Part shown: positions 19,268 to 64,000 of the stretch, piece after piece
Position numbering within the stretch: the stretch's first letter is position 1
Layout: each line of letters starts with the position of its first letter
Source: Tricholoma matsutake
Taxonomy: Eukaryota > Basidiomycota > Agaricomycetes > Agaricales > Tricholomataceae
Assembly (NCBI GenBank): GCA_026075535.2
Contig: AP026540.1
Location: 13,082,001 to 13,146,000, forward strand
Length of the DNA: 64,000 bases
Direction of reading: 5' to 3'
The notes under the pieces: model-generated
Database searches by the model: none
Told to the model about the DNA's origin: nothing
What the model saw: the letters and a program-made list of their open reading frames with translations, nothing else
Position numbers and translations under genes: made by a program

Positions 19268-20800
19268 GCGGTGTCATGGGTATCCATGGTTATTTGAGTC
19301 ACCGGCTGTGGAAGATGCCGGATATTGATCATCGCGAGAAACGATGACAAAATCATCATCTGTAAGTATTTTTACTTTCTTTTTTCACAACTAATAATTT
19401 TTTAGGTCCTACTCCAGCAACACAAAGTGCATGAAACTGGCCCAAACAACTTTTATCGTTGTTTGGGCCCCAGGTAAGTTGTTCTTTTGTTTTCCTTTAC
19501 TCATCTAACTTCATTTCCATTGTTTACAGGTTTTAACTTACAATGACCCGACTACCACAACAATGATGATGATGACAGCCACCACCACCCCTACCACAGC
19601 ACCACAGCACCCCCAACCGCCGCTGTGAGCAACTGCTCACGGGGTGGAAACGGGGAGCAACAAGATGGGATAGGAGGATGAGGACAAGGCATGAGCTCTG
19701 ATGATGTGTAGATACATGTTGTTTAGGGGCACACCATGCCAAATGAACAAACAGCACATGGGGATAGGACAGGATGGGATATGAGGATAAGGCACAGGCC
19801 CAAATGACACATAGATATGTGTCGTTTGGGCCACAGGTATTTTTTCTTTCTGTTCCTTTCTTGTTTTCTTCATAAAAGTTACTTCTATTCTTATTATTTA
19901 CAGGTTTTATCTCACAACGATATGACCACCCCAACGAATACATGGTAAGTTTTTTTCCTTTCATTTCCCTGTTACTAACCAAAATGACTTTAGGTAGTGA
20001 TTTTACCATTGACAATGACGACTGGTGCCCCCTGACCCACCCCCACTACTGCCATGAGCCCCTGCTCATGGAGTGGTTAGGTGGTAGCAAGACCATACAC
20101 CCACAATACACCCACGACAGCAGCACCCCCAACTACAGCCACGAGCAACTGCTCATGGGGTGGAAACAGGGAGCAACAACGGGACAAGGATGGGGACGGG
20201 GACAGGGAAGATGAGCCAGCCACCACCAGCTGCAATGGGAGCAGCGGCAACAGCAGCAGCAATGAGGAGCTGCACCACCACCACCACCACTACAGGCCAA
20301 CAAGGGGAGGCCGACGATGGGGAGTGGGACAACAACATCAAGACAGTGGGACAGGCAGATGAGAATGGGGAGGGCCAGATGACAGGCACAAGGACGAGGA
20401 CAGAGAGGCACAAGGACGAGGACAGAGAGGCACAAGGACGAGGACAGAGAGGCACAAGGACGAGGACAGAGAGGCACAAGGACGAGGACAGAGAGGCACA
20501 AGGACGAGGACAGAGAGGCACCCACCACAACAGTGGGAAGGGGAGGGGAATGACAATGACAACAATGCACCAGTGGGGAGGGTGGGGCCAACAGGACGGC
20601 AGGGAGGATGGGGAGGACATAACGGGACTACAACAACAATAGGGTGACGACACCCCCCTCCCCTGCATTTTGCATGGGGGTGGGGTTTTCTCTTTTTGGT
20701 ATTCTATACAATTATTAAATAAATAAATCCCTCTGTCTCTCATCTCGAGTGGGGGTGTCTTTTGTTTTGCATGTGAATAAGTAACATAAGGCTTGGTATT
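19268..20800 (+). repeat. Structured intron-bearing repeat, copy E
   Basis: Four intron-like segments follow in order: 19,362-19,405, 19,474-19,529, 19,837-19,903 and 19,945-19,993. All start GT(A/G) and end AG, and at least three have CTAAY branch-like words. Two are preceded within 6 bp by palindromes: GGCCCAAACAAC/GTTGTTTGGGCC, and GGCCCAAATGACACAT paired with ATGTGTCGTTTGGGCC. GAGC-type hairpins lie near 19,622, 20,052 and 20,140. A GC-rich stem (CCCCTGCATTTTGCATGGGG, about 20,661-20,682) followed by T-rich sequence marks the 3' part. Reading frames through it are low-complexity and differ between copies, so I regard it as non-coding. Confidence 0.6.
20393..20525 (+). repeat. 22-bp tandem repeat, about six units
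   Basis: Nearly identical units of GCACAAGGACGAGGACAGAGAG. The period is not a multiple of three, so any translation cycles through all frames; the apparent His/Asp/Arg-rich proteins here are artefacts. Confidence 0.9.
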
Positions 20801-20998
20801 ATTCAAATTGTAGCTTAGGTATGTATATGGGGTGTTAGTCTGACTTAGTCAATACAAATACATGATATTTAACAACATAGAACATCAAATACAAGGGGAA
20901 AATATTGTCAAAACCGTGGTGTATATTACATGGTATCACACCTGCAGTGTTTCACAACAGACCATGGAAAAACCTGTCACCACGGTTGCGGTGTTAGG

Positions 20999-21080
20999 AT
21001 GGGTGCAGTGTTGGCAGGTGTGGGTGCAGTGTTGGCAGGTGTGGGTGCAGTGTTGGCAGGTGCGGGTGCAGTGTGTGAAA
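20999..21080 (+). repeat. 19-20-bp tandem repeat, about four units
   Basis: Units of GGGTGCAGTGTTGGCAGGTG in the stretch between structured repeat copy E and the palindrome at 21,114. Confidence 0.85.
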
Positions 21081-21113
21081 GTTTACCCATGGTGTGACCC
21101 GTGCTACACCCTA

Positions 21114-21448
21114 GTACTAATGAATTTTGGTCACTGATAATGCTATACTAGTAATAAAACACTCAAAAATTGAATGTGGAAAGATGGGGGGCAAGCCCAA
21201 GGAAAGTTGATGGAATGTGGGAGCCTTTATATACCCAAAAATGCGCACAGACCATGTAGTCATATGTGTGAATAAACAATAATACTACATGTGTGTGTGA
21301 CTACATGGTCTGTGTGCATTTTTGGGTATATAAAGGCTCCCACATTCCATCAACTTTCCTTGGGCTTGCCCCCCCCATCTTTCCACATTTGATTTTTGAG
21401 TGTTTTATTACTAGTATAGCATTATCAGTGACTGAAATTCATTAGTAC
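21114..21448. repeat. Large palindrome with two outward TATA leaders
   Basis: Two arms of about 150 bp are nearly perfect inverted copies around a centre near 21,281. Each arm has TATATAAAGGCTCCC-like or mirror sequence and a GGGCAAGCCCAAGGAAAG block. Similar single-arm leaders occur at about 24,650-24,720, 27,985-28,050 and 28,970-29,050, the latter just upstream of intron-bearing repeat copies. The arms therefore look like promoter/leader segments that became inverted. Confidence 0.7.
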
Positions 21449-21733
21449 AGCCTTAGTAGCCTACAAAATTCATTAGTATGGAAAGAAGCCAGAGCTTCCA
21501 ACACTCAGGGAGAATGAGACATGTTGAGGTCTTCATCCTCCCCCATGTATTCCTGGAGGAATCCTGGAGGATTATTGGGAACCAATGTTCCAGCCATTTG
21601 TGACTCAAGTATATATTCCTGGCTCTTCCCATTCCAGGGGGATTCCTGGTTGATTCCTGGTAAATTACACTCTTCCAGGAGGAATTCCTGGAATTCCCCA
21701 GGACTCTGGTACCAGGAATCCACCAGGACTCTC

Positions 21734-22454
21734 ACACAACAGGCAGGGAAAAGATTTCTTTGAGAGAAAATATGGATAAAATGTGGAGAAAATTACACCT
21801 TTTCATGCAGCAAACAAGTAGGGAAAATTTGGTGAAAATAGGTTGTTTTCTCTTTATTTTCTCTTCAATCTTCCTTAGAGAAAATATATCATTTTTGTAA
21901 AGAGAAAAAATGGGAATTAGAAGTGAAAAGAACTTATTTCCTCTTGATTTCCCTTTGATTTTGCCTGGGACAAAAAAGTTATATTTCCTGCAAGAGTAAA
22001 TTAGAAATCTCTGGAGAACATAACTTATTTCTTCCAAATTTTTGCTTTGAGAATTGCATGGGAAAAAGTGTAATTTTCTCCTGGTGAAAATCTGGCAAAC
22101 ATGAGGAGAAAATTACACTTTTTCCCATGCAATTCTCAAAGCAAAAATTTGGAAGAAATAAGTTATGTTCTCCAGAGATTTCTAATTTACTCTTGCAGGA
22201 AATATAGCTTTTTTGTCCCAGGCAAAAATCAAAGGGAAATCAAGAGAAAATGAAGTCTTTTCACTTCTAATTCCCCTTTTTTTCTCTCCACAAAAATGAT
22301 ATATTTTCCCTAAGGAAGATGGCAGAGAAAATAAAGAGGAAACAACTTATTTTCACCAGTTTTTCCCTACTTGGGTGCTGCATGAAAAAGTGTAATTTTC
22401 TTCACATTTTCTCCATATTTTCTCTCAGGGAATGTTTTGCCCTGTCTGTTGTGT
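21734..22454. mobile_element. Foldback element 1, about 330-bp arms
   Basis: Long inverted arms (about 21,740-22,090 and 22,100-22,454) with ends ACACAACAGGCAGGG / CCCTGTCTGTTGTGT surround a tiny centre. The inverted sister copy of the host repeat lacks it: there GACTCTC runs directly into AGGACTCTACC near 39,805, which gives an empty site. No reading frame of note. Ends resemble those of the foldback at 29,238-29,770. Confidence 0.85.
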
Positions 22455-22575
22455 CAGGCATCTACCAGGACTCTAACAGGAATCCAGTGGGACTCACCAG
22501 GAATCCACCAGGACTCTACCAGGACTCTACCAGGACTCTACCAGGAATCCACTGGGACTCCACTGGGATTTAACC
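22455..22575 (+). repeat. CCAGGACTCTA minisatellite
   Basis: Repeated units of ACCAGGACTCTA and ACCAGGAATCC, about 12 bp each. The mirrored array lies at 39,700-39,850 in the inverted copy. Confidence 0.8.
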
Positions 22576-22613
22576 AGGAGTCTTTATTACTACTAAGTAA
22601 TAAAATAAATGTC

Positions 22614-22690
22614 ATGAGCCAGAATTGAACCCTCAGCATTAGATGACAACATCATAGCACAGCCAATATAACCACTATACCACATAGATT
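22614..22690 (-). other. tRNA-like promoter boxes (minus strand)
   Basis: Read on the minus strand, an A-box-like GGTATAGTGGTTAT is followed at about tRNA spacing by a B-box-like GGGTTCAATTCTGG. The T-arm does not pair well and no cloverleaf forms, so this is not a functional tRNA gene; it looks like a tRNA-derived internal pol III promoter, as in SINEs. Its copy is at 39,585-39,657. Confidence 0.5.
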
Positions 22691-22924
22691 TACAATGTAT
22701 ATCCACTAACTGCTCTAGGTACCATTGGGGTGGCTGTGCATGACAAAGCACACAGCCGCGTCATCAACACTGCCAGCTCATCAACCATCACCACCGCTCT
22801 CGATGACACCACTGCCTCTCCCTCCTCTCCACTCTACCACCACCACTGCGTGGACACCCACTGCCACCACTCCCATGCCCATGCCACCATCACCACCACC
22901 TGCAAATGAGCTGACTAGATGGAA

Positions 22925-23425
22925 TGCAGGCCCAAACGATGCAGATTGCATTGTTTGGGGCCTAAGTATGTTTTTTTTTGTTTGCTTTTTGTTTTTTTAT
23001 AGGTTCTACTCTGCTGACAGACAGAACATTGGCCCAAATGATGTCATTGGACAGAACACAGGCCCAAACAATGCAGATCACATCGTTTGGGCCCTAAGTA
23101 AGTTTTTTGTTTGCTTTTTGTTTTTATATACTAACTAACTTTTTTCTGTTGTTTTATAGGTTCCCAGATGGAACAGGGGCGCAAATGACATGATTGGATG
23201 GAATGCAGGCCCAAACAATGCAGATTGCATCATTTGGGCCCTAAGTAAGTTTTTTTGTTTGCTTTTTGTTTTTATAAACTAACTAACTCATTTCTTTTGT
23301 TTTATAGGTTCTACTCTACTGGTAACGACGGCAAATGAGCTGACTGGATGGGCCCTACATAATTTTTTTTTGTTGGCTTTTTGTTTTTATAAACTAAGTA
23401 ACTCGTTTCTTTTGTTTTATAGGTT
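22925..23425 (+). repeat. Tandem palindrome-plus-intron array (copy A)
   Basis: About four units of roughly 110-130 bp. Each has a GGCCCAAAYRATG...CATYRTTTGGGCC palindrome, then CTAAGTAAG, a T-rich tract, CTAACTAAC and TTATAG, and then GTTCTACTMTACTGG. Intron-like segments are 23,098-23,159 (62 nt) and 23,245-23,307 (63 nt), normal basidiomycete sizes. The first (22,966-23,002) is shortened, and the last has lost its GT donor. Splicing is inferred from sequence only. Confidence 0.6.
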
Positions 23426-23859
23426 CTACTATACTGGCAACAACTGCTGGACATGAGACAACCCAACACACCCACCCCATGCCTGTGAGCCTCTGCTCGT
23501 AGGGTGGATTGTGAGTGTGTGCAGTCAACGACAACAATGACGCCACTGCCTACCAGCACCAGAACCCCCTACCAGCACCAGAACCCTGAGAATGCAAAGC
23601 ACAGCCGCCAACCACAACAGACAACAACAACAGGGCCAACGACACACCACCCGCCTCCAGCCCCATGAGCCACTGCTCATGGGGTGGATTGCAGGTGGAA
23701 TGGTGATGACGGCCATCACCACACAGCAGGAGACGGCCAGGAAGGGCACAGCGACCAGGAGCAGCATGGAAACAATGCCCAGGATGGCAATAATGAGGAC
23801 AGCGACAATGAAGGCCCGGCACCCAGGACAACGGGGACAGGACGACAGGCACGACTCAC

Positions 23860-24005
23860 CAGGCTGCCCCTGCATTTTGCATGGGGCAGTTTTTTTCATT
23901 TTTAATTTATGGTAATACCTTCCCCCTCGCCCGCGTTTTATGTGGGTGAGGGTTTTTTTATGTAATTATTGGTGTATCCCTCGCATCCAACGTGAGGGAT
24001 GTAGT
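23860..24005 (+). terminator. Three GC-rich stem-loops with T-tracts
   Basis: CCCCTGCATTTTGCATGGGG then TTTTTT; CCCTCGCCCGCG...GTGGGTGAGGG then TTTTTTT; and ATCCCTCGCATCC...GTGAGGGAT, followed by AATAAA near 24,008. Equivalent stems end the other copies. They could be RNA 3'-end or pol III termination signals; the role is inference. Confidence 0.4.
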
Positions 24006-24103
24006 TAATAAATTTTATTTGATCTTAATTGTGAGCTTCAAGAGAGAAATACCTAAGTTTGAGTTTGAGAGTATAAATACACTTTTATATTGGTAGCTAA
24101 TAA

Positions 24104-24190
24104 TTCTCCTGTGGCTCAACTGGTTAAGCACTTGTTTGGTTTGTCATGTGATTCTTGATCACGAGTTCTAGAGTTCAATCCCTGCTTTGA
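24104..24190 (+). other. tRNA-like promoter boxes (plus strand)
   Basis: A-box-like GTGGCTCAACTGGTTAAG and B-box-like AGAGTTCAATCCC at tRNA-like spacing. The T-stem does not pair, so it is a tRNA relic rather than a gene. The inverted copy is at 38,062-38,150. Confidence 0.5.
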
Positions 24191-24344
24191 ACAAGTTTAT
24201 TTTGTAGGTACTTTGTGAAATTCATGAAGTCCAAAGCACTTGAAACTCGTAAGATATCTCAAATTGACTTTCCATTATGGTATGACTTTAGGGTACTGAG
24301 TCCCACTGGATTCCTGGAGGATTCCTCCAGGACTCTGTGGGGGA

Positions 24345-24600
24345 GTGTAAAGTTCAGAAGGGAACCCGACACACTAAATATAGCATCCACATCAAAGATG
24401 ATTGTGCCAGTGTCCATAAATGGTAATACGGCATTTATAGACTCTCACAGTGTATTTCTCAACAGGTGCTACCACAGCAAGTGCTCAGAAGAAGACCAGG
24501 CCAATGAACTGACACTAGCCAACAGCATGGGTATTGGTATGGGTTATCAAACCACAATTCGTAACCCATGCCAACCTGCCACCAAACAGTGTGGTGCACC
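24345..24600 (+). pseudogene. Possible retropepsin fragment
   Basis: The frame holds MIVPVSINGNTAFIDSHSVF, which resembles the start of a gypsy-type aspartic protease (PVSING, then hydrophobic-I-D-S), but without Gly after the active-site Ser and without flanking pol sequence. It runs into CATGGGTA repeats. A short relic at best. Confidence 0.3.
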
Positions 24601-24649
24601 AAGTGTAGTACTTAATAATATATTCAAATCATTTAACTACCTATGAAAA

Positions 24650-25640
24650 AGTGGGGTGAGCCCCGGGAAAATGTTGGACAAGGGAGGTTTATATATATGC
24701 AACTATTTGGCCCTGTGTGCACACATGATGCATGACCAATGATCAACATTTCAACGATCAACAATAATGCAGACACATCATTTGTACATGTTTGTACAGC
24801 TGTGATGACAAGTCCTCTGAGTCCCCGCCCACAACAAGGATGACCAGAACAACTGAACGAGGAGGGCCCCAACACCCCAGAAGACCAAAACAAGGGCCTA
24901 AGAAATGTTGATGACATTTCTTGGGCCATATGTAAGTCTCTTTCTTTTCCTTTTATTGTTTACTAACTAATGTTACTAGATCTAGCTATTGCCAATGATG
25001 CCTGCCACTGCCACAAGCCCCTGCTCATGGGGTGGCTGGGTAGAATGATGATGGATGACAGGAAGATGACGAGGACAGGATGACATGACAATGACAATGA
25101 AAGCAAAAAAGGCCCAAGAGACGTTGTCGATGTCTCTTGGGCCATTGGTAAGTTTTTTCTTCTTCTCATTTCTTTACTAACAATCTTTTTAGGTACTAAC
25201 TAGAACTACTGACAACAACAACAACGAGAACAACAGGACAACAAAGCTGACCCAGCACTTGCCACACTGCTGCGAGCCCCTGCTCACAGAGTGTATCGCG
25301 GGTGTCAATGACAGACCAGGGGGGTAGGAGGAGGACAACGATGACACAGAATGCTGACAACATGGAATGACGAGAGGGGGGAGGGGGTCACCACCACTGC
25401 AGCCCCCGGTGAGCAGGGTGAGGGCAGATGATGATGACAAGGGGGGGATGACGAAGACGATGAGGGGGACCATGATGAATAATGGGTGCTACCAGCTGAT
25501 GACAAAGTGCAATGGAAGGGGACAGGACAATGGGGATGATGGCAGCCCCAAACTCACAACCACCCCCCTCTCGCTCGCAAATGTGAGGTGGGGGTGGTTC
25601 TTAGTGTAATTAAATAGTTTAGATAGAATAATTTATTTAC
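24650..25640 (+). repeat. Structured intron-bearing repeat, copy B
   Basis: A TATA leader (GGTTTATATATATGC near 24,690) is followed by two palindrome-intron units: GGGCCTAAGAAATGT/ACATTTCTTGGGCC before intron 24,932-24,979, and GGCCCAAGAGAC/GTCTCTTGGGCC before intron 25,148-25,189. The arms differ from the GGCCCAAACRATG form yet stay complementary. GAGC hairpins lie near 25,011 and 25,270, and a GC-rich stem at about 25,560-25,605. CATGGGT clusters on both sides may be its termini. Confidence 0.55.
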
Positions 25641-28429: not shown

Positions 28430-29237
28430 CTCCCCCTCAAGCCTACCATGGTTTGAGTACAGGGGAATGGTTACTTCATCCAGGTGCATCAAAACCTCTG
28501 TGTGGTGGAAAACCCTGTGGGAAAAACCTATCCACACGTGAGAAAAGCTACTGAGTTTCTAGTGCGTTGACTGGATGCCCATCTCTTCTCTATGTTGAGT
28601 AAATTTTAGCTTTGGTAGAGCTTTGGTTAATGCATCTGCAGTTTGCTCTGGATCACAACAGTTTTGTATATAGTGTTTAAGGGTCCAGTCCATAAGACCA
28701 GAAAAAGACCAGACCCTTAACCGAACTTAACCACAAGAGACCAAACCATTGGTTGCAGTTGACCCCACATGGGAGTCAGTTCGGTTGTTGGTTGATCAGT
28801 TTTGAGAAAGTCACAAAACCAACAGAAACCTGGTTGAAACCAGTCTTAACTGGTCTTTCACGCATGTTTATACTAGTAGATATATAGTATTAATCGAGTA
28901 CAAGATACAGAAATAAGTATATAAAAGAACAAAATATAAATGTTATTTATAGTATATGTACATAAAGTAGGACAAGCTCGGGGAAAGTAAATGTTTGGGT
29001 GGGTGCTTATATACCCTGTGGCAGTGCAGGGACCATGTGGTCACATTTGTGTTCCCAAAAACAAAAGTGGCACCATTTGCCTGACGACTTCCCATGACCA
29101 CAACAACAACATCAACAATGCTGTGTCATCACTCTGTCTGCAATAACAACCATGCAAACCAACAAACACAATGCAGGCAGCCCAAACAATGCCAGTCCAT
29201 CGTTTGGGCAGGGTACATTCTTTTTATTCATTTATTA

Positions 29238-29770
29238 CACAAGAGGCAGAGCAATATATTACCCTGGAGAAAATGTTGGGAATAATGGGGGAAAAAGACA
29301 TTTTTTCACCGGGGAAAAATAAAAGGAACCATCAGTAAAGATATGTTATTTTCCCACACTTTGTCCTTTTGGTTGCTACAGGAAAGCAACTAATCTGTTT
29401 CCAGGAGAAAAACTTGTGAACATTAGGGGAAAAAAGGTCATTTTCCCACATATTCCCAGTTTTTTCTCTGTGGAAAAATAACTAATCTGTTTCTAGGTGA
29501 AAAAATTGTGAAAGTCAGGAGAAAAAATGTTATTTTCACCAGATATAGAGAAAATGTGGGAAAAAAGATATATTTCCTCTCCATTTTCACCTGATTTTCT
29601 CCTGGGAATGGATGAGTTATTATTGCTGAGCAAGAGCAAAGAGAAAAGTGTGGGAAAAACAACATGTTTTTACTGATGGTTCCTTTTATGTTTCCCCAGT
29701 GAAAAAGTGTCTTTTTTCCCTATTATTCCCAACATATTCTCCAGGGTAATATATTGCTCTGTCTCTTGTG
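29238..29770. mobile_element. Foldback element 2 inside an intron-like segment
   Basis: Inverted ends CACAAGAGGCAGAGCAATAT / ATATTGCTCTGTCTCTTGTG with long internal arms. TTATTA on both sides (29,232-29,237 and 29,771-29,776) looks like a 6-bp duplication. It interrupts an intron-like segment that begins GTACATTC at about 29,210 and ends TTTTAG at about 29,806. Confidence 0.82.
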
Positions 29771-30003
29771 TTATTACTTATACTAAATGTTTTTTACTTT
29801 CTTTTAGGTTCTATTCTTTTGTTAATGACACATAAACAATGCCAATGGGAATGATGCTGCCAACACCAATGGGGGCGACACACTGCCCTCTCTGTGCCCC
29901 ACCCCTCCATTGACACACATGCTGCCCAGCTTGGAACCTCTCGCCACCACAAACAAATGAACACAAAGTGCCCAAACAATGACTAGCATCATTTGGGCCC
30001 CCA

Positions 30004-30059
30004 GTATGTCTTTTACTATTGATTATTATTATTTTTACTAACCAACTTGATTTTTTCAG
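30004..30059 (+). other. Intron-like segment after a palindrome (hAT cargo)
   Basis: GTATGTCTTTT...ACTAACCAAC...TTTTTTCAG, 56 nt, preceded by GCCCAAACAATG/CATCATTTGGGC four bases upstream. A good match to a fungal spliceosomal intron. Confidence 0.55.
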
Positions 30060-33000
30060 GTTTGATAACAACGACAACACCACCATCCCTACGTCACTCC
30101 TGCGAGCCGCCACCCACCCTATGCTGCCGCTGCAAGCCTCTGCTTGCAGGGTGGCAACAGGTCCCCCATGCCACATCACACAGCACTACCACCCCACCTG
30201 TGAGCCACTGCTCTAGGGGGCAATGGAGGTGCTGACGATGAATGGTGCCATGTCAACCTGGCCCAGTGGGATGACAAATGACAATGCACACAGGGAGGCC
30301 AACAAATGACAGGGAGAAGATAATGAATGACAATGAAAACAGGGAGGGTGGCAACAAACAACAGGGAGGGAATGACAAACAACAATGCAGGGAAGATGAC
30401 AAACAACAATGCAGGGATGATGCAAATGGGGGATACAATGAATGATGAGGCCGACAGCAACATGTACCAGGGAATGACGTACAATGCCCCACTCTCACTA
30501 CAAATGCAAGACCGTGGGGTGTTTTTTTGTTTTTTTTGTTATTCTTTTTCTATTAGCAACATCCCACCGCTGCGAGCACCTGCTCACAGGGTGATGTAAT
30601 TAGTTTTATTAAGTATATAATTTAATTTAATTAGACAGTAAAAAATGGTAGTAAAACCAGTCCAAACCAGTCTTTTGGGGTTGTGGTCTATCTAATCTGG
30701 ACATCAATGTGGACTGGTTTTGGTCTCCAGTTGACCCCCTTGGGGGTCAAAAAACTGGACCAAACTGGACCCTTAAACACTATTTGTATATCAAGAACTT
30801 TTTCATTCACAAGTCCCCTGACCCAGTGATGGCAAAGAGCGATGTGCTTTGACCATTGATGGAATTGTGGGTTGTATGTTAATACTACAGACCCCTCATT
30901 GTCCCCAGAAATAATTTTTGGGTCATTTTGAATAAATCCAAGTTCACCATATAGATTTCTGAACCACGTTGCTTCGTGTCCAGCCTCTGAGAGCCACATA
31001 TTCTGCCTCCATGAAGGACAAGGCTATGATCATTTGTTTCTTTAATTTCCAGGTCACTGCTCCTCCTGCTGTGAGGAAAATGTATCCTGTTGTGGACTTG
31101 TGGCTGTCCATATTTGAAAAGGCAGTGTCTGCATACCCATAGAAGAGGTTATTTGTTCCAGTCACATCCTGAAGTGTGTGGTAAGTTATGCCAAGAGTTT
31201 TCATACCTGCAAGGTACCTGAGTATCCACTTTAATACACAATGATGTTGGAGACCTGGGTTAGCAGTGTAGGCAGCCAATTTATTCACAGCATATGAGAT
31301 ATCCAGTCTTGTGGAGCTAGCAATAAACTGTAGACTTCCCAATAATTTCACATACAAATTACTTCAGTTGGGTTCATTGTGATCCAGATTTGGTCCTAGC
31401 TTAATATTTGGATTCATAGGTATACTGACAGGGTTTGCATTCCTTGAGGAGGATATTCCTGTTGAGAAATAATGATGGAATTGCTGGTATGATTTATTTC
31501 TATACCAACAATCTTGCTTGGTTCCCCAAGGTCCATAACTTGCCATTCTGGGCATGACACATTTTTCATATGTTCCATCATCATGTCAGACGATGCAAAA
31601 AAAAGTGAGTTGTCAACCCAGATGGCCATAATTCCAATGTTGTCTCCATCCCATTGAATGTAAATGCAAGAATCTGTGAGTAAGCATTTGTAGCCATGAG
31701 ACTTCAGTTTTTCATCAAGCTGCTTATTCCACTCTCTCCCAGCTTGTTTTAGGCCATAGAGAGTCTTGACCAGCCAACATACTCAGTCCATTTAATCCTT
31801 GCATCCCTCAGGTTGTCATGTGTAAATTTCTTCTTGTAAAATGCTGTTCAGGTAAGCCCCCTTGACATCCATCTGTTGTAGTTGGAGTTTCTTTATTGGT
31901 ACAAGGGTGAGAATTGCGCACAACATATCCATCCTAACAACAGGTGAATATGTTTCCATATAATTGTAATTTGGCTGCTGTGCACATCCTTTTACTACCA
32001 GTCTTGCTTGTTTCCTAATTTCATCCCCTTGTTTATTTCTTTTCTTTATAAAGATCCATTTATTGGAAATCAGGACTGTGTTTGAAGGTTTCTGCACAAG
32101 TTCCCAAGTACCCATCTTCTTCAGCAAATCCAACTCTTCCTCCATGGCTATTTGCCATTCTGGCCACTCTGGGGAGTTCCTGGCATCCTTTAGGCTGGTT
32201 AGTTTATCTCCAGTATCGATAGTTGGTATGAATTCCATGCATCTTTCACAGTTCATTTATATCCACATCCTCCTCTATCTCATTCCGTTTATGCTTGCAC
32301 CTTTTGGGTTCAAGGTCCAGAGTTATCAGAACCTGTTACACCCTTAGGCAGCAGCATGCTTCCATCAGACTTCCTCTCAAGTGGTGCATCAGTCAGGTGT
32401 AATAGTGATTTGCTCCAGAGGTGAAGGCAGTTCTGGTGGGTTAATATTTTGGAGGTTTCTAGAGGTAAGTACCTTTCACATTTCCGCATTATAATATTTA
32501 ATTACTCCAGCACCATCATCAAATCCAACATAGGCTCAGCACTTGGATTTTGGTAGCATTTTCCTCTCTTCTTTTTGTCCTTGTAATAAAACCCAAATGG
32601 GGGCCCTGAATTCACATAAGCTAGATACATTCAGTTTTTTATTGTGCCAGCCCTCATAAGGTGTTGATTTCTGAATGTGCTTATTATACAATCAGTTCCT
32701 GAGATAAGCCACATGTAAAACTGTGTACTGCCAGAGAAATTCAGGTTGTTGGCAGTGAGCATAGCGCATGATAATTTGACAAGTGAGTGGTTCATACTTT
32801 CCATGATGCCATTCTGTGAAGGTGAGTACAGCGCAGTTAAACAAATTTCTATACCATGTTCCTTGCACCATTTCTCCAGTTCCTTGTTTACAAATTCTTT
32901 TCCCCAATCAATTTGAATCCCCTTCAGTTTTTGGTTTTGAGTTATCAGGTGAGCCAAATAATTGATTACACCTTGTGCTGCCCCTGATTTTTTCTTCGGA

Positions 33001-35543: not shown

Positions 35544-37890
35544 TGTCCTCTTACATCAGCAAGCCATTATCACATGCGTCCAGTATCACATGTTATTCCA
35601 CTGGTATATAGTCTATACTTCGAGTACTTGTACTGTATCGTAGTTCTTCCCTCTGAATATACTAAGTTCCTAACATGTCTCATTCTCCCTGAGTATTGGA
35701 AGCTCCGGCTTCCTTCCACTTTTTTTTTGTTATGAACTTACTATTGACACTCTATTCTCTCACACTCATTCTTTTCCCTGAAACCACACCAACCCTGAAA
35801 TAACCACAATGGTCAAATTTTTCACACTCTGTCTCTCTACAACAATGCACCATCGAGACAGCCTCCCAAACCACTCCTGCTGCCACTGATGACACCGTGA
35901 TGCAAACAGCACCCATCAATGAGCCAACCTTCCATCACCACTGCAATGTGCCACTGCTGACAATGCCCGCACAGCCCCCATCAATGCTGCCAACACTGTT
36001 GACAGGGGCCCCCACCACTTTGTCCCCTGCTTCAAAACAGCCACCAGCACCTTGCAAATGGCAGCATTCACTTCCAAGCCAACCCACAGCACTTGAGCAG
36101 ACTCACCAGCCCCTTGTATCGTGTCCAGAACCACCTACTGGCACTACCATGTCACAGCCAACAACAGCAAAAAAAAAAAAAACTGTTGCAACAATCTGAA
36201 TAACATTCTACCCCTTTATCCAGTGCTCCCCATCTTTTGCCACCACCTCCCCTCGTCCCTTGCACACCCATATGTCCCATCCGTTCCCAAAAATACCCCA
36301 TGCTTCCCTGGAATGACATGAAACAATTTTCGATGATTTTTGAATAATGATGCAACAACAACATTTGAGCGCCCCCTATCTATCTATCAACCCCAATCCT
36401 TTCCCCAGCCCTTCCCCTTGTCATTGGACCCCCCCGCATCGCACCCCCTTCCCAAAATGCACCACAGTTTCCCCAGGTGCTCATGCTCAACCATTTTCTA
36501 TAATTTTTCTGATAACAGGGGACCTGAAATGCTTCCCCCTCATTTCACAAATGCCACCTGTGCCTCACGTCGCTGCCTTGTCATCAACAATGACGTCTAC
36601 AGCTGGGGACACCCCCCATTCACTGCCAACCCCATCCCAGCCACCCAGCTCACCCCAGACCCCCCGTAAATGCACCATTCTGGCGTCATCTGTGTGGTAC
36701 ACCCCTGCTGCATCACTGATGATGCCGTTGACAACTATTGACACCCCCTGTTCATCGCCTGTGCCCCGTTCACTGCCCATGCATCCCAGCCAACCCCAGT
36801 GTACCTGCCAACATGCTGTTTCACTACCTACAGCAGCCCTCAACAATGAATACAAACGACTACAAAAAAATGGCATGGCATTAACTACACCACCCCCTAG
36901 ATTTCCTCATTTTCCTCCCTGGCCCAGGAAAGGGTCTACGCTGCCTGTCTCCCCTCAGCTCGACCATAAACAAGCCGTTTTGCTGCTCCCTGCATCTTTG
37001 ACAGCTGACAACTGGTTTCCAATCCGTTTCACAGCTGCTGTCTCCTGTCACACCCCCTGTGAGCTCTGTACCCCTGTGTTCAGCCCTGTCACCTCCACGT
37101 TTCAACTGGGCTGAAGATGCTGCATCAATGCCCAATCACCCCTTGCACCCAGCAATGAGATCTCTCCTGTCTGAAGACAGACTGTATATGGCTGTTTGGG
37201 ACTCTGCGATGATGAACAAGGTGACGACGAGGTCCACCTTATTTTCTTTTACCCCACAACAATTCTTTTGTCAAAATTCATCATCTTATGTTTGCCCACC
37301 ATATTCCCAACCTGCTCATCTTGAGCCCACTCATTCCACCCTCCACCACCACCACCACCATGTCACCATCCAGCCCATATAACTATCCCTGTCCCCAGCA
37401 CCATGTCACTGCCCACCATCACTGTCATCGCCCATCTAGCACTGTCAACACTGACCATCATCGTAATGCCCACTGTCATCATCATTGCCACTGCCACTGT
37501 CATTGTAACACCCACTGTCATCGTCAACGCTAGTCCTTGCCTGTCCTCGTCAAATGCCTGCCCTTGTCAACACCAGTCCTCACCCATCCTCATCAATGCC
37601 TGTCACTGTCAATGCCCACTGTCATCATCAGTCCACTACCAGGCAACTCAATGTTTTCACCAACATGTAAAGTGTGCCTGCCACTTGTTAACTCAAGTTG
37701 TGGTTCAATTCAACACCCCCCCCTATCAAATTTTTGGAAGTATGAGAGTGCGTAAGAGTGTCCTCTTACATCAGCAAGCCATTATCACATGCATCCAGTA
37801 TCACATGTTATTCCACTGGTATATAGTCTATACTTCGAGTACTTGTACTGTATCTTAGTTCTTCCCTCCAAATATACTAAGTTTCTAACA
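35544..37890 (+). mobile_element. LTR-like element without coding capacity
   Basis: Two direct repeats of 132 bp (35,544-35,675 and 37,759-37,890), TGTCCTC...CTAACA, differ at five positions. The 2.1-kb interior is C-rich and has no domain I recognise; a 255-codon frame at 36,347-37,114 is Pro/Ser/Thr-rich and probably chance. A tandem CACTGTCATCATYGCC-like array lies at about 37,400-37,640. TAAGAG precedes both repeats, so the exact boundaries and the target duplication are unresolved. A fragment (repeat end plus interior start) recurs inverted at about 21,480-21,522. Confidence 0.6.
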
Positions 37891-37899
37891 TGTCCTGAA

Positions 37900-40025: not shown

Positions 40026-41614
40026 AAAGACCTCTCTTTTCCCTAGCAAGTCCATGAATACATTTTAACTCAATTGAGACAAGGTTGAGTCTCACCTTTC
40101 TCGCTTCAATACACAGCTGGTCCCTGTTTACAGCTAGCTTCAAAACAATAGGCCCCTTCTGAAAAAATACATGCATTGCCCAGGGAACTGAATATTGATC
40201 ATATTCTAGCCCATTTGGGACATCCACAAGTTCGCAAGAGCTCCAGCAGTACTAAGCAGCCAGCATGATTTTGGTCGAAACACTGTCCAGGGATCAAAAA
40301 TGTAACTCCCGCAATGCATGTAATGTTTTGGAAGGGCCTATCATTTTGAATCTACTATTAGCTGTAACTCGCCATACGTGCTATCATTTTGAATTTACTA
40401 TTAGCTGTAACTTGCCATACAGCAGATATTTCCCATGTGTGATCCTTCTTCACCTCCTGTTTGCCAGGTGTTTCTGACAATTGCAATTTCATTTGTCTGT
40501 GTAGTTTGGAGTCAGCGGGAAGAACTCATACAAACAGCGGTTGAATCTCACTGGTAGTTTCTCGCTTCAATGCACAACTGCTCCCTGTTTGACTTGTGAT
40601 ATCGTGCAGAAGCTTCACGCATGCAATCCTTCTTCACCTCCTGTTTGTCAGGTGTTTCTAACAATTGCAATTTAATTTTTCTGTGTGGTTTGGAGTCAGC
40701 AGTGGGAAGAGCTCTCAGCTCACTGGCTATTGCATACAAACAGTCATTGAATACATACTGGCTTCTTTCATGGGCCTTCTTTTGTAATAGTGTTTTATTA
40801 CTAGTAAAGGACAGTCAGCTTCATGAGTTATGAGAAGGTGTTATGAGAAGAAACGGCACAAGTACAACTTACTTTGAATAATACTTAACACAATATTTCT
40901 TGCCTGGCGATGGGCAACAACTCACCAGAATTCCTCATCAGAAAGATGAGCAAGATTGGAGAATTTGAAGATCACCATATCATACTACAGATACTGGAGT
41001 ATGATGCTTATATATGAAGGGTTACCGGTTAGTATTGAGACAAGACCATGACTGTATTTGTTTGGTTGTGCATGCTCTACTAAGTATATACACTAAAGGG
41101 CAATAACTTGAATGGACAAAAACAAGGAATCCATAGTTGAAATGGATCTTTGGGCATGGATAGAAGGATAGGTATTGAACTCAGATAGATGATAACACAG
41201 GAGTATAACCACATTTTGCAAGTAGGACAGTACTTACTAGAAATATTATCATGAAATCACCATGCCATCATATATGAAAGGCAACAACTTGACATGCATG
41301 GCTGGAAGGATGGGTATTGAACTTGGATAGTTGATAACACAGGAGTATAACTGCATTTTGCAAGTAGGGCAGTACTTACTAGAAATATTACATATCACAA
41401 AATCACCACTGGCATGCCTTCAACAAGTGATGTCATCCATCCAGATATATTCAATACATGGAAACACAGATTTCATTTGATACTAGGTATAGATGACAAA
41501 ATGATCTTAAGCTAACAGTTCATCCTTGGTAGAAAACAGTCCCATTCCCGTAGATGCACGTCCTTCCATCTGGCCAGTTTCTTCTGCACGTCCCTCATCC
41601 ATCAAAGATTCCCA
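40026..41614. other. Intergenic stretch with local duplications
   Basis: Two diverged direct copies of about 110-190 bp lie at 40,441-40,560 and 40,626-40,750 (ATCCTTCTTCACCTCCTGTT...). Another pair is at 41,149-41,258 and 41,296-41,400 (GGGTATTGAACT...GAAATATTA). No gene. It may contain the left end of the KDZ-type transposon, which I could not define. Confidence 0.4.
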
Positions 41615-44930: not shown

Positions 44931-44933
44931 ACT

Positions 44934-47900
44934 CTAATTGCACATAACCATCTCATCCTCCATCTTGTCCCACTCATCTTGTTCCAGGTCTGCAACCAGT
45001 AAGTCCTGATACTCCTTCATCTCATCAATCTCCTCTACCTGAACTGAATTCCATGTAGCAAGATCACCAATGTTGTTCCTCCAAGCAAATTTCAAAACTT
45101 GCAGCTCCTCAAACTGTGCTGCCCCCAGTTGTGCACACTGCTTTGTCGCAACTTTGCCACCACTGGAAAAGAGCTGCTCACAGGGGATGGATGAGGCTTG
45201 GCATGCAAGGTAGTCGATGGCGATGCGGCACAGGGTAGGGAACAAGGAACCATTGTCCTATTAGTGGTCAATATCAAAATGCGGCCCAAGGGTGAAGCGA
45301 GTACTCATACCTGCCACCATTCCACAATGTCAGTATCCTTCATGACATTGGAAGGAACATCCTTAAGATATTGGCGTAGCTCCATCTGCCACCCTTTGTT
45401 ATCTGCCTGACTAGCGAGAAGGGCCAAACAATGTCAGTCAAAATCAGATAGGACTGAGGTTTCGTCGGCTTGAGCTGTGTTGGGTGTGGATTGCATCGCA
45501 ACTAGGTTTTGTGCAGCTGGTCTGGCCTTCCAGTACTTCTCCATCTATGCAAAAGTGTCAAAACTAATCAAATGAGTCAAATAAAGCAGACGTACCATAT
45601 GTTCAAGGATCTGTCGAGCCTCATCTTGCCAATTCTTTGCATAATGATTTCCTGCCTCTTGTTCCTCTTCTTGTTCCTTTGCCCCACCCCATGCCAGTTC
45701 AATGTACTCTAGTTTGAAGTATGGATGCAGGGCTAGAGCATTGTAGTTAGAACAGCTACTTGAATGTTTTACGATACTTACCTAGTGCCAAGATATAGGC
45801 TGGTTTTTCATCAAACCATGAGTAATACTTATTGAGCTTGGCAAGCCCATTGTTGATCACTGTTCACTACTTGGCAAATCATGGATTGTCGTGTTTAGCT
45901 TCCCAAGCCATTTGAAGCTCTTCAATCGCAGGAAGGGCACACCACAAGGTTGGGTGTTTCTCAGCTGAGAAATACTGTTGTATTCTGTTAGAGTCCTGGC
46001 ACCATATTAGCCTCGTTGTTTGCAACTAGTTCATTCATGTACTGCTAAAATTTCAAATGCCTCTTTTACCCATTCCCAGTCGTCATCAGAAAATGTGAAG
46101 GCTGACCATGATATATGTTTCTCAACTTCACCATTGTGACGAATTATAGTGATTGGACCATAGCGATGATCGGCGCTTGCGACGAACAACTTAATAGGCT
46201 ACTCACTTATCAGCAATCATACATCAAATGGAATTGGAACAAAATGACATACCTGAAGGACTTTGTACGACACACTAAGCATACAATATGCCATTCCCCA
46301 TCTAACATTGCTGTGAAGTGGAATTTTGAGGGGATCAACGATGCCGCATTCAATCTGTAGTTTCTTGAATGCTTCAATCCATTGCCCAGAGGACTGAATA
46401 TGTTCAAAAGGAAAAAAAATCAGATGATCATCGATGACACAAGAAAAGAAAGACAAACCTTGATAGCAAGCGTTTGGATAGTCACAATAACGTCCAATGA
46501 ACCGTTTAGCACACGGTTATCGGGGAGGGATGGGTCATACTCCCAAATGGCAGTGGTTGTTTTCATGGCAGCGATCTTGGTGATGTGATCCATCACGTCA
46601 ATGTTTGCAAGATTAATGACATGACTTAGACAGTTAGAATGATATTAGCAAGTGTTTGGAATAACTAGAAAGAAAACTCTAGTTACGGGAGTTGATTATC
46701 TTCCGCAGACCATGCAGGTAGCTTGCGGCATTCATGTATACTTTGAATAGTTTCACACTTGGTTGTATTACTTGATGCATTGTTGAGGGTGGCTGTGAGG
46801 AGCTGTGAGGACTTTCGATCAGATAACACTGCATATTGACCTGCATCTGGCCTTACCTTTGATCTTTCCATATTTATTATCCCAATCCGATCACAGACAC
46901 CCATGAAGTATCTCCCTAGGCTCTTCCCACTATGCTTGCCTGAGATTGCTTGAAATCTGATGACTTCTGAATGCATCGCCCATTTATCTTTCTTCACTTG
47001 AATCCAATGTGCTGTCATGCCAAGGAATCCTGCCTTCATTGTATCAACTGTCCAGCCATCTGCTGTTGTGGATATCATGCCAGGAGCTGCCTGCAACATA
47101 ACAACGATAAGTACATGCAGCTTTTTGAATGAAGACTACATACCTCAATGTCTTGTTTCAGTTGATCTATCCATCTAATGAACTCATTGTGCAGGTGTTT
47201 GACGACATCGTATGTTGTTGGCAGGTTGAGCAATATTGACTTTGGTCTCATGGCAACCAAGCAATTTCAAAATGTTGTTTTTCCCACAATGGTGAGCAAC
47301 TGGCAAGGATCAGATAATTCGGACTTGTGTCAACTGTAAGTCTTACCTGATCATCCACTGCGATACACTGAGTCACTGCATGAAGTAGGTCCTCGCAGTC
47401 AAAGACCAGCCATCCAGCCATCTTACTGACCAACATGTCTAGTGTACCCTGTTTCACCACTTTACCCTTTTTCGCTGCTTCCCTCTCATTCCAGATAGGA
47501 CGTGGGACCGCCCAGTGGTGCTCAGGGTTGTTCTCTTGTTTGCACAGTTCTTGGTATTGTGTATAGTGCTGGCAAATGTGTAGACAACACGAGGAATTAC
47601 CGCCGGTGTGAAATGCCTTTCTCTGGCCATTCTTTTCAACAAACTCTTTGTCATTCCTATTTGATATCTTTGTGAGTGCCTTGACCTCTCACAATTCATT
47701 GATGCATCACTTACCTGCATGTATTACACCACTGTCCTCGCTTTGTCTCCAGAGTGTCATTCTTCCTCAGAAACTTGACTGTGACTAAGTCTGTGAAGAT
47801 AAGCTGCAAGTCCTTGGCCTTCTCTTTCTTCGTAGGGGATTTGGCCTCGATGGGAATATGGTGACGTTCGCCAAGCCCATCTCCCTTTAGCGCTATATTA

Positions 47901-48302
47901 ACATATGTGTTATTTAGATCATGTGGAAGACTCATACCTCGCCATCACTGCCTTCATCAAATTCATGTACCACATGTTTAGCTGCGTGTTCAGGCTCATC
48001 ATCAACTTCCTCGTCTTCATTATCCTTGGCTACCCTCGCCTTTTTCTTGTGTGGCTTGCGAACTTGTTCTTCATCAGATGTATCATCAGATGTATCATCA
48101 GTTGTTGAAGCTTCAGCTATCATTTGCTTCTTGGCTGTGGCTTTGTGTCCCTTGTTTTGAGCTGATTTTGTGGCTGCTTTTGTGGATCTTTTGCAGGCGC
48201 CTTTGTGGATGTCTTTGTGGATGCTTTTGTCTTCGCAGTTATAGAGGATTTTTGTGCTCCTTTCACCATTGTAACGACATTGTGACCAACCACATTTTGC
48301 AT
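44934..48302 (-). pseudogene. hAT transposase, multi-exon, decayed
   Basis: A Lys-rich start region (48,302-48,120, frameshifted) leads to an acidic exon (DDTSDEEQVRKPHKKKARV). A BED-type zinc finger follows, split by an intron: GQWCNTC at about 47,720, then KAFHTGGNSSCCLHICQHY at about 47,610. Next are PRPIWNEREAAKKGKVVKQG, PKSILLNLPTTYDVVKHLHN and an RNase H-like core with TTADGWTVDTMKAGFLGMTA (first Asp) and LNNASSNTT. Relatives have Asp-Asn-Ala-Ser in the latter; AAC after CTC fits another CpG transition. The C-terminal dimerisation domain is clear at 45,245-44,934 (PTLCRIAIDYLACQASSIPC, EQLFSSGG). The enzyme would cut and paste elements sharing the TAGTGTTT ends. Confidence 0.85.
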
Positions 48303-48779
48303 TTAAATATCCACATTTGTTTGGTACTTTGTTTGGGCTATGAACATTTTGATATACCTCAACGGCTAGTTTTCAAGGTCTACAACATAGTCAACAGTAT
48401 TGTAATATAGTCGGTCATCTTGCTCTTGGTTTAGATAGGATAGAACCGGTTTCAACCAGTCTCAACTGGTTTTTATCGGTCTTTGAGAGTGTTCAAAGCC
48501 CTGGAGACCGGAACTGAACTGGTCACCAAAACTGATGAACCTTAACCGATGGTTTGGTCTCTACCGGTCCAGTTTGGCTCAGTTTCAGTCTTTTTTCCAG
48601 TTTGATCAACTGGACCCTCAAACACTAGATTCTTGTGTGACTTTGCCTTCTTCCTGAATGAAGCTTTGGAGATGTCATCTGACACTGAGTTGGTGGGCAC
48701 TGCTTGACTCATAGTGGAGATGTGAGTAGGGACACTGGCAACTGAGGGCGGAGGAGGTGAGGGGCCACATGGTGGAGTC

Positions 48780-59190: not shown

Positions 59191-59194
59191 TCAC

Positions 59195-61449: not shown

Positions 61450-62343
61450 ATCACCTCTGGAACATCTTCAACAACATGGGCAACATCACCTATGTCCTCT
61501 GAGGATGTTGATGCCACAGCCACCCAAGCCTTTGATAGAATCTTCTCCCATTGTTTCTTCTTCAGCAAATTCACCAGGTCAACAAGATTTGATGTGGACT
61601 GGACTTGATAAACTTGGCCTTCACATGTTTCTTGATGATCACCCCAGTTGGTCTTGGAAAAGTCACTGCGAGGTCGAGGGGGTGTGACTTCTTCACCAGT
61701 ATGCCACGTCAGCAAAGCATGCTTAACCTTGATGAGATAAACATTACCATTACTATCATATACACCTTAGATGATGATGTTCAATATGCACCACTTGGAT
61801 GGAATATATAAGTGCACCAACTGGCAGTTCCTGTTGATGATCTGAAGGGGGTACAAGAGATATGCTGGCGAGATGAGTGGCAAACATGTGGATTATGAGA
61901 CTTGATTGGAATACTCCCTTGAACAGTCTGAGGTGAGCACTGGTGGCAGCATCCAACAGGCACTTACAATTGGTTTCTTTCCCACTCCAACATCCTCGTA
62001 GATCTCATAGTAAAATGGTCGCTGTTTGTCATTGTCCCCAAGAGTGAGGTCTTTACACTGCCCCATATGTTCTGTGCGGATCCATGCGGAATTGCATGGA
62101 CTCCACACAGATCTGCATGGACTCCGTATAGATTTACATCCCATCTAATGAACAGTTTTAGTTATGCAACAGGGGCAGACAGTCTGCACAGATCTGCACA
62201 GACTAGCTCAGATTCCACACTTTTTACTCGGATTCCATGGATCCGCATCCGAGATCAGACAGCAAGTATGAGCAAGGACCAGCAAGGACAGTCTGCATGC
62301 ATCCGAGCAGACCATTTGAGCTTAGCAAAATAATATCATGAAT

Positions 62344-62415
62344 GGTGTTTGAACTCGGAGCCTCATGGTTAACTAATAAAGTACAGATGCACATTACCGT
62401 TACACTATGCAGCCA
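62344..62415 (-). other. tRNA-like promoter boxes (copy C)
   Basis: Minus strand: CATAGTGTAACGG as a weak A box and CCGAGTTCAAACACC as a B box, at tRNA spacing. It occupies the same place relative to the shared block as in copy A, but the sequence differs. Not a functional tRNA. Confidence 0.4.
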
Positions 62416-62667
62416 TTATTGTTTGTAGCCATTGATGCAACTACATATGACTGTTTGGCTTTGTATGACAAAGCACACAGCTGCGTCATCAACATTGCCA
62501 GCTCATCACTCACCACCACCACCATCGACAATGACCATGCCGCCACCTCACTCCCTCCCTCCTTCCCTCTCTACCACCACCATCTCCACTCTACCCACAT
62601 CACCTCCACCCACTCCCAGCCCCATTCCACGGCCACGAAGAGCTGCCAACAAGCTGACCAGAAGCAA

Positions 62668-63085
62668 CGCGGGCCCAAACAACGCAATTGCATCATTTGG
62701 GCCGTAGGTAATTTTTTTTATTTGTTTCTTCTTTTTATCAACTAACTAATTGCTGTCTTTGTTTTTTAGGTTCTAATCTACAGGTAACGACAGATGACAA
62801 CACAGGCCCAAACAATGCAATTGCATCGTTTGGGCCATAGGTAATTTTTATTTATTTGTTTCTTCTTTTTATCAATTAACTAATTGTTTTCTTTGTTTTT
62901 TAGGTTCTAATCTACAGGTAACAACTCCACGGCCACAAAGAGCTGCAAACAAGCTGACCAGAAGCAACACAGGCCCAAATGACGCAATTGCATTGTTTGG
63001 GCTGTAGGTAATTTTTTTTTATTCATTTCTTCTTTTTCTCAACTAACTAATTGTTTTCTTTGTTTTTTAGGTTCTAATCTACAGG
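62668..63085 (+). repeat. Tandem palindrome-plus-intron array (copy C)
   Basis: Intron-like segments 62,708-62,769, 62,841-62,903 and 63,008-63,070 are 62-63 nt, all GTAATT...CTAACTAAT...TTTTTTAG. Each is preceded by GGCCCAAAYRAYGCAATTGC-type palindromes ending 4-5 bases before the GT, and each is followed by GTTCTAATCTACAGGTAACRAC. The middle palindrome is 32 bp with a single C/A mismatch. Confidence 0.65.
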
Positions 63086-64000
63086 TAACGATGGACGACA
63101 ATGCAGGACAATGCAAACCCCCCCAAAACAGACAAAAACGAGCACCAGGGCCCCACCACGACCACCCACGGCAACAGATGACACACCACCCACCCCCAGC
63201 CCCACAACACCGATGAAACCGATGCCAACCACAGAATAACACACCACCCACCATCCACCCCACAAGGACACACCACCCACCTCCAGCCTCGCGAGCCACT
63301 GCTCGTGGGGTGGATGGTGGGTGGAATGATGATGAGGGGGATGGGAGACAAGAGGAAAGGGAGACGAAGGGGGAGGGGGAGGGAGACGACGAGGGAGATG
63401 GGACAGGAGACAACAGCACACCACCTGCCCCCAGCCTCACAAGCAACTGCTCGTGGGGTGGATCATGGGTGGAACAACGACGAGGAAGGGGGGTGCATAC
63501 AGACCAATGGGGAATGGTGAGGGGGGACAAGAGGGGGCCACAAGGGAGGGCCAACGATGAATGCACCCACCCCTGCCATCTTGCATGCTAGCGAGACGGT
63601 GGGTTATTTATTTTATTCTATAGTCTACTGCCCCCCTCTTCAGCAGGGCAACTTTTTTGTATTTAATACTACCAATAAAATGTCCCCCGTCGTGGGGCAT
63701 CCTTGTTTTTTTTGCCATCAACCCATGCCTCAATTCTTCATTTGGGTCACCCCATGGTTGGAATCTGTGTGGACTTATGTGGACTTATGTGGACTCTGCG
63801 CAGACTTATGTGGACTCTGCATGGACTGGGGCAGAGTCTGCAGTGAAAGGGGTGTAATTTTTTATTTTGGTCACCAGATGGTTGGACTCCGCACAGATCT
63901 GTGCAGAACATATGCAGTGTAAATTACTGCCAAGAGCCCATACTACATACTCAGCATGTTTCTCAGTGGAGTCGAGGCCCAAGGCTTTGAAGAGTTTCTT

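Follow-up and report, generated by a model that had tools for sequence, protein, structure and literature searches.

Donor-linked palindromes in the apparently non-coding interior of a transposon superfamily of Tricholoma matsutake

A 64 kb stretch of the genome of Tricholoma matsutake (contig AP026540.1, positions 13,082,001 to 13,146,000; hereafter called the window) contains several copies of a repeat that belongs to a very large superfamily of non-autonomous DNA transposons. These elements measure about 2 kb in most cases and are bordered by 8-bp target duplications. Their interior holds one to several tandem modules (with periods of 115-152 nt), each formed by a palindrome with arms of 12-14 bp, a gap of a few nucleotides, and then an intron of spliceosomal type of about 41-68 nt. 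We tentatively favour the view that the transposons carry a spliced, apparently non-coding RNA gene, wherein a hairpin that ends 3-4 nt before the donor site would assist splicing. Below we describe the anatomy of the module and the ends of its carriers, and then weigh this proposal against four other explanations.

Palindromes and their distance to the donor site

All genome-wide counts refer to the T. matsutake genome searched, which comprises 161,040,721 bp in 13 contigs. The single palindrome arm GGCCCAAA occurs 7,985 times on one strand and 8,045 times on the other, compared with 689 and 684 occurrences of the reversed pattern. The two-armed palindrome, GGCCCAAA...TTTGGGCC, was sought as GGCCCAAAN{4,34}TTTGGGCC and is present at 4,106 places, with no match to the control; arithmetic from the one-arm and two-arm counts gives a total of very roughly 13,000 palindromes if the arms decay independently. 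When GTAAGT is required 2-8 nt 3' of the palindrome (GGCCCAAAN{8,22}TTTGGGCCN{2,8}GTAAGT), 1,460 places are found (728 + 732), whereas the control again yields 0 and the chance expectation calculated from the number of palindromes is ~14.

The loci used for studying introns and palindromes together were retrieved with the palindrome itself, and with the window they amount to ~280 kb, overlaps included. In this collection, 59 of 70 palindromic places have an intron-like stretch under a permissive pattern, 4 of them on both strands and the others on one; 12 of the 63 oriented matches to this pattern begin with GTTTTT and are probably decayed donors. We also used a strict T-rich intron pattern that is blind to palindromes, with nine overlapping loci excluded. 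A stem ends within 12 nt of the donor in 44 of the 60 strict introns, as opposed to 131 of 3,000 random positions. The exact sequences GGCCCAAA and TTTGGGCC are absent from eight of these 44 introns, where seven stems are palindrome variants and one (L031, 1,770) is unrelated. On inspection by eye, the 16 introns that lack a stem include five with a decayed palindrome, four from which it is deleted (L004, L020, L032 and L033) and seven with none, among them the introns at 19,362 and 19,945 of copy D.

The initial annotation of the window placed a palindrome just before nearly every donor, which holds for most of them and is slightly overstated given the 16 of 60 without a stem. The association itself is real. 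All five palindromes quoted there lie within 9 bases of the positions given in Table 1 (both of copy D, both of copy B, and the second of copy C), and at the sequence level its proposed splice junctions coincide with the first intron-like stretches listed for copies D, A and C.

The intron-like stretches carry a GTAAGT donor, a CTAAC branch site and a TAG acceptor, and thus display the features of U2-type spliceosomal introns. Some donors have been lost by apparent CpG decay (CTACGTAAG to CTACATAAG). The distance from the stem to the GT is 3 or 4 nt in 31 of 44 introns. In 38 units with a GT donor, for which gaps of 2-5 nt from the fixed GGCC were admitted, 35 have a gap of 4 nt and the other three one of 5 nt; the mean hairpin energy of the 38 units is -20.4 kcal/mol. 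U1 pairs with the last three bases of the exon and the first six of the intron, which places the end of the stem at about the point where pairing with U1 would begin.

Two kinds of transposon ends

Inverted ends are present in two alignable families of full-length copies. The termini of the elements that we call group I read GAGGTCTTTACACTCCCCC or GAGTACTTTACACTCCCCC at one end and CAGTACTTTACAGTCCCCC, or a similar sequence, at the opposite end, and the exact form of GAGGTCTTTACACTCCCCC is found 464 + 477 times genome-wide. Taking the best of the candidate ends, 7 or 8 bases of an 8-bp target duplication match in 13 of 17 elements; the exceptions are L041 (6 of 8), A' (2 of 8), and A and L013, which were missed by the end pattern. 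In A as in A', just one of the two flanks lies in a related repeat, and the overlap at 35,672-35,679 fits an 8-bp duplication. The best full-length relatives of L035 are ~86-91% identical to it.

Group I ends (GAGGTCTTTAC / CAGTACTTTAC) are not canonical for hAT transposons, and the group I terminal inverted repeat (TIR) is absent from eight KDZ or hAT loci examined over 3.2-4.0 kb, a span beyond which the ends of those elements may lie. Both kinds of transposase are abundant genome-wide, with at least 165 matches to KDZ (831 candidates at first look) and at least 151 to hAT.

Group II elements have hAT ends of the form TAGTGTTT(T)AAGG... and an 8-bp duplication. The example in the window is element F, which holds a module between TIRs TAGTGTTTAAGGGTCCAGT at both ends and is flanked by a perfect 8-bp duplication, TTTGTATA. 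Its TIR (TAGTGTTTAAGGGTC, at 28,671 and 30,782) is of the same type as that of the transposase-bearing element at 42,753-48,627. The TIRs of hAT transposons begin with YAGNG, and by both its duplication and its TIRs element F is a non-autonomous hAT transposon. The initial annotation was thus correct in locating one palindrome-bearing copy within a hAT-type element. L007 is a further group II copy, with TIRs TAGTGTTTTAAGGTC and flanks TGTTCATC/TGTTCGTC. Given that the module is found with both group I and group II ends, at least two kinds of transposon carry it. No ends were found for copies D and B.

Reading inward, group I elements have TIRs, subterminal repeats, usually an outward-pointing tRNA-like stretch, a C-rich 5' exon, and the palindrome-intron modules. 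These are followed on the 3' side by GAGC..GCTC hairpins, and then by C-rich/G-rich hairpins with T-runs behind them, for which a loose pattern has matches, some of them spurious, in 15 of 16 elements. In 11 group I elements, the longest open reading frame (ORF) of the spliced core ranges from 60 to 237 amino acids, and in eight of the 11 it is within the 95% limit of shuffled sequences. Judged by ORF length, the cores not having been searched against domain libraries, no transposase is encoded, and these elements could belong to the hAT superfamily only as non-autonomous members. The three cores that exceed the limit (L032, 237 amino acids; L028, 170; L021, 144) are related copies of one family.

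We considered whether the unit is coding, as a T/P-rich ORF starts from an ATG common to exon 1 of A, A' and C, and rejected this because only three of the 11 cores beat the shuffled limit. No Pfam match at E 0.001 was obtained for ten larger ORFs of the window, and no Rfam match in the window reaches the gathering score; Rfam matches below that score are taken as noise. We treat the interior unit as apparently non-coding. The initial annotation had described a dispersed non-coding repeat family; its apparent lack of coding capacity stands, but wherever ends have been found the repeat is the interior of a non-autonomous transposon and not a stand-alone element.

Most of the 17 group I elements examined also contain sequences resembling RNA polymerase III (Pol III) transcription units near their ends. 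An outward-pointing A box and B box are present on the 5' side of 11 and the 3' side of 12 of 17 elements, compared with 48 of 400 random pieces, and an inward-pointing pair is present in only one of 17 on each side; the Pol III reading is based on consensus sequences of the two boxes. With a looser A box, a unit is found at 28 of 32 ends of 16 elements, and TTTT occurs within 40 nt after 27 of the 28 B boxes, mostly 14-18 nt behind, compared with 24% at random positions. Note that these counts are not independent, since group I copies are related. The 5' tRNA-like stretches differ between families, and thus it is the feature that recurs rather than a particular sequence. Of 12 loci scanned with ARAGORN, 11 are without a tRNA, and the Rfam matches listed for L017 include no tRNA family even when E values up to 10 are admitted. 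The units, with their boxes and T-runs, therefore appear to be promoter-like without forming a cloverleaf. No B box is present in L007, the one group II copy scanned. The tRNA-derived short interspersed nuclear elements (SINEs) likewise carry an A box, a B box and a short T-run, but the T. matsutake units differ from these in pointing outward near both ends of elements that have TIRs.

The co-occurrence of TIRs and introns in one repeat recalls introners, which are transposons that make introns by inserting into genes, and among 130 introner families 59.2% have TIRs, target duplications or both (PMC9860276). However, the introns described here are internal, with several hundred bases between them and the TIRs, and the exons around them belong to the transposon itself. 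We consequently regard an origin as introners as extremely improbable, with the proviso that location in host genes was not searched.

A proposed role of the hairpin in splicing and its alternatives

We infer transcription, splicing and function of the interior unit from the anatomy described above. In the proposed sequence of events, RNA polymerase II would transcribe the unit and splicing would follow. The hairpin would abut the point where U1 pairing starts, and might thereby aid the choice of donor in a weakly defined non-coding exon that is poor in signals. Splicing might in turn raise the output of RNA, as introns do in the basidiomycete Cryptococcus, where removing the introns greatly cuts mRNA for most of the genes tested (PMC3744415). 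Mobilisation would be provided in trans by hAT-type transposases, the borders of group I elements would be marked or insulated by their outward tRNA-like units, and inserted copies would decay mainly at CpG sites.

One can extend this proposal to a family of spliced non-coding RNA genes that is the cargo of at least two transposon groups, wherein the donor-side hairpin, docked at the U1 site, would ensure splicing together with export or escape from the RNA interference (RNAi) that follows stalled splicing. Pol III units would serve as borders in one of the groups, and the RNA would be what makes copies successful. As a whole, this extended version appears unlikely to us.

Sequence conservation near the palindrome is consistent with a role in RNA. 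Mean non-CpG divergence is 6.5% among seven aligned copies and 11.9% among eight aligned copies. In the eight-copy family, divergence falls to 0-2.5% in alignment windows over the 3' tRNA-like region and over the exon that immediately precedes the palindrome, compared with 13.4% for the median window. This exon lies outside the pattern by which the loci were fetched.

Several other observations, here and in the following paragraphs, weigh against a contribution of the hairpin to splicing. The perfect conservation of the palindrome is biased, because the loci were fetched by its pattern, and the seven-copy family has other equally conserved stretches, some of which lie in alignment columns that few copies cover. 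A role in RNA found no support in two tests. The hairpin brings no predicted gain in accessibility of the U1 site, which is 0.418 for native units, 0.380 with the palindrome shuffled and 0.417 with it deleted (38 units; p 0.053 and 0.98). Some introns of the strict set have no palindrome. In the subfamily comprising L034, L036, L038 and L041, ATAAGT replaces GTAAGT at several places while the branch site and acceptor are kept, and canonical splicing therefore seems unneeded for spread at these places. A mispair (GGACCC in one arm of one unit) is common to L017, L021 and L028.

The pattern of substitution in the stem adds to these points. The initial annotation reasoned that the arms vary yet stay complementary, and that structure rather than sequence is kept. 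Most of this argument fails, since the changes it quoted are mostly C/T and G/A differences at CpG sites (CG/TG/CA). CpG hypermutation has been reported in T. matsutake (PMC6980582). At the first CpG pair, 717 copies in donor orientation with GTAAG downstream are TG-CA in 162 cases, CA-TG in 169, TG-TG in 223 and CA-CA in 163, of which the first two states keep perfect pairing, TG-TG gives two wobbles and CA-CA two mispairs. The arms change independently, and the odds ratio of 0.75 (z about -1.9) gives no sign of compensation. Tolerance of wobbles in RNA could be the reason why TG-TG is more frequent than CA-CA, and strand-biased deamination explains this equally well. At the second CpG site, mispairs are as frequent as in shuffled arms (63 v 67 and 69 v 67 among 300 copies listed). 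Among 100 oriented copies listed, mispairs are slightly low at the first pair (32 v 38.8, P 0.03), which we ascribe to copies intact in both arms, and as expected at the second (45 v 45.8, P 0.46).

Genuine compensatory changes outside CpG sites are few. Position 11 is Watson-Crick paired in 300 of 300 copies listed (A-T in 292, C-G in 7 and T-A in 1), and a further 100 listed copies, inspected by eye, add five C-G pairs and one T-T mispair. The C-G cases have related loops, and probably derive from one or two events. The other case is a second stem class, GGCCCAAGAGAC...TCTTGGGCC (AAGAGAC/GTCTCTT), with 268 + 227 matches genome-wide. Its pattern fixes both arms at two changed pairs, so that these counts show the class and not its rate, and fully symmetric places are counted on both strands. 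This class again precedes a donor in the four copies that were read.

For the most part, then, the palindrome arms are conserved in sequence, as would be anticipated if the palindrome were a DNA site for a dimeric protein, either a host factor or a transposase, that controls transcription of the unit and is near the donor only incidentally. The excess of the single arm over its reversed pattern and the 292 of 300 A-T pairs at position 11 fit such a site, to which inverted loops would also be harmless. However, the AAGAGAC/GTCTCTT class alters the sequence, keeps the palindrome and still lies before a donor in the copies read, and sites for a transposase are expected at the ends of an element and not hundreds of bases inside it. 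On balance, a protein-binding site in DNA seems quite improbable.

The loops provide a further clue. When reduced to purines and pyrimidines (R/Y), ten loop classes are present in both orientations relative to the donor among 300 copies listed (for example, 67 v 11 and 20 v 5), although some of these classes may pair by chance. Inverted loops suggest DNA-level processes and the footprint of template switching or hairpin inversion, and hence they also count against a splicing role; template switching is predicted to yield loop inversion together with perfect stems (PMC8794818). The palindrome might accordingly have no function in RNA. It would be an old part of the module in which template switching or the processing of replication hairpins copies one arm to the other, and it would be near donors because it was duplicated along with the intron. 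Losses of palindromes with one GGGCCC left behind, and CpG pairs that evolve without selection, agree with this history. Copying between arms should nonetheless enrich TG-CA and CA-TG over TG-TG and CA-CA, which the odds ratio given above contradicts, and it leaves unexplained both the near-constant distance to the donor and the low divergence of the neighbouring exon. We therefore judge this explanation to be possible, if somewhat unlikely.

Alternatively, the hairpins could give rise to small RNAs by which the elements are silenced or protected, a purpose that short, stable hairpins present in thousands of copies would suit. Nevertheless, at 12-14 bp the stems are short as substrates for Dicer, no Rfam family is matched in the window at its gathering score, and a small-RNA function would leave the link to the donor unexplained. 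Although genes for RNAi (quelling) are reported in T. matsutake (PMC6980582), we view such a function as very unlikely.

Relation to known elements and other features of the window

The elements resemble non-autonomous hAT transposons, whether these are similar to miniature inverted-repeat transposable elements or are larger deletion derivatives, in having a TAGTG-type TIR, an 8-bp duplication and a transposase-bearing relative in the window. Instead of a deleted transposase gene, however, they have as their interior a conserved, spliced-looking and apparently non-coding unit, which is common to a second TIR group. Fungal introner-like elements and the stwintrons of Hypoxylaceae (PMC8469720) are also repeated introns with inverted-repeat symmetry. 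However, in these elements the inverted repeats are the intron's own ends, the introns reside in genes and there are no short target duplications, whereas the T. matsutake palindrome is exonic and its introns stay in the transposon. RNA hairpins maintained by template switching (PMC8794818) share the perfect stems and loop inversions, but there a mutational mechanism is described that is silent on position relative to a donor.

No element of this design was found in the titles and abstract openings of the open-licence papers listed by the literature searches. The type of mobile element is known. Its interior, the occurrence of this interior with two different sets of ends, the hairpin linked to the donor and the outward units of Pol III type are undescribed in those listed papers. 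Pattern scans gave three matches in prokaryote contigs, which is about the chance number, and none in viral contigs.

Non-autonomous DNA transposons are usually viewed as empty shells that are defined by their ends. A conserved, gene-like interior common to elements with different ends suggests that some such transposons carry an RNA program of their own. If the hairpin does help splicing, the family would constitute a natural system, replicated a thousand-fold, for examining how an exonic structure beside the U1 site affects intron recognition, and would allow one to ask whether transposons escape RNA surveillance by being spliced cleanly. Unclassified repeats make up 25.4% of the T. matsutake genome (PMC10211490), and the module family may help to sort part of these.

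Table 1. Transposons, palindromes, introns and tRNA-like units delimited in the window
Feature	Position	Strand	Remarks
Element F, complete non-autonomous hAT with module	28,671-30,782	+	Duplication TTTGTATA at 28,663-28,670 and 30,783-30,790
F palindrome GCCCAAACAATGACTAGCATCATTTGGGC	29,970-29,998	+	
F intron	30,004-30,059	+	Donor GTATGT, 56 nt
hAT element	42,753-48,627	-	TIRs TAGTGTTTAAGGGTC / TAGTGTTTGAGGGTC; duplication AATTCTTG/GATTCTTG
hAT C-terminal (dimerisation) domain PF05699	44,937-45,257	-	E 1.1e-8; inside 42,753-48,627
Copy A, TIR group I	21,526-24,357	+	3' end is CTTTACACTCCCCCACA on the other strand; 727-nt fold-back inside at 21,731-22,457
A palindrome 1	22,929-22,962	+	
A palindrome 2	23,061-23,093	+	Then intron 23,098-23,159 (62 nt)
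A palindrome 3	23,208-23,240	+	Then intron 23,245-23,307 (63 nt)
A 5' outward tRNA-like Pol III-type unit	22,617-22,687	-	Limits approximate, by eye; B box and TTTT
A 3' outward tRNA-like Pol III-type unit	24,111-24,208	+	Limits approximate
Copy A', TIR group I	37,895-40,034	-	Identity to A 97.6% at 3' end, 95.7% at 5' end
A' palindrome 1	39,307-39,341	-	Then intron 39,239-39,303
A' palindrome 2	39,157-39,191	-	Then intron 39,089-39,153
A' palindrome 3	39,005-39,039	-	ATAATT at donor position
Copy C, TIR group I GAGGTCTTTACACTGCCCC	62,047-63,929	+	Limits from sequence; duplication CCAAGAGT/CCAAGAGC (7 of 8)
C palindrome 1	62,672-62,703	+	Then intron 62,708-62,769
C palindrome 2	62,805-62,836	+	Then intron 62,841-62,903
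C palindrome 3	62,973-63,004	+	Then intron 63,008-63,070
C 5' outward tRNA-like unit	62,356-62,416	-	Limits approximate; none found at 3' end
Copy D palindrome 1	19,439-19,469	+	Then intron 19,474-19,529
Copy D palindrome 2	19,797-19,832	+	Then intron-like 19,837-19,903, donor GTATTT, by eye, missed by intron patterns
Copy B palindrome, alternative stem AAGAAATG/CATTTCTT	24,895-24,927	+	Then intron 24,932-24,979
Copy B palindrome, alternative stem AAGAGAC/GTCTCTT	25,111-25,143	+	Then intron 25,148-25,192

The window contains additional features. Part of one of its ORFs shares 91% identity, over 23% of the query, with a T. matsutake protein. The reading frames of the transposase-bearing hAT element are in pieces. 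Fold-back elements of 335-727 nt are present at 21,731-22,457, where one interrupts copy A, at 21,114-21,448, with TATA-like motifs on both arms, and at 29,234-29,774, where in element F one separates the first palindrome from the acceptor. Copy D includes a perfect 22-bp tandem repeat of 6.3 copies (20,384-20,521). Finally, two 240-nt stretches that are 93% identical (12,026-12,266 and 19,037-19,276) lie on either side of gag/pol-like ORFs, and are probably the long terminal repeats of a retrotransposon.

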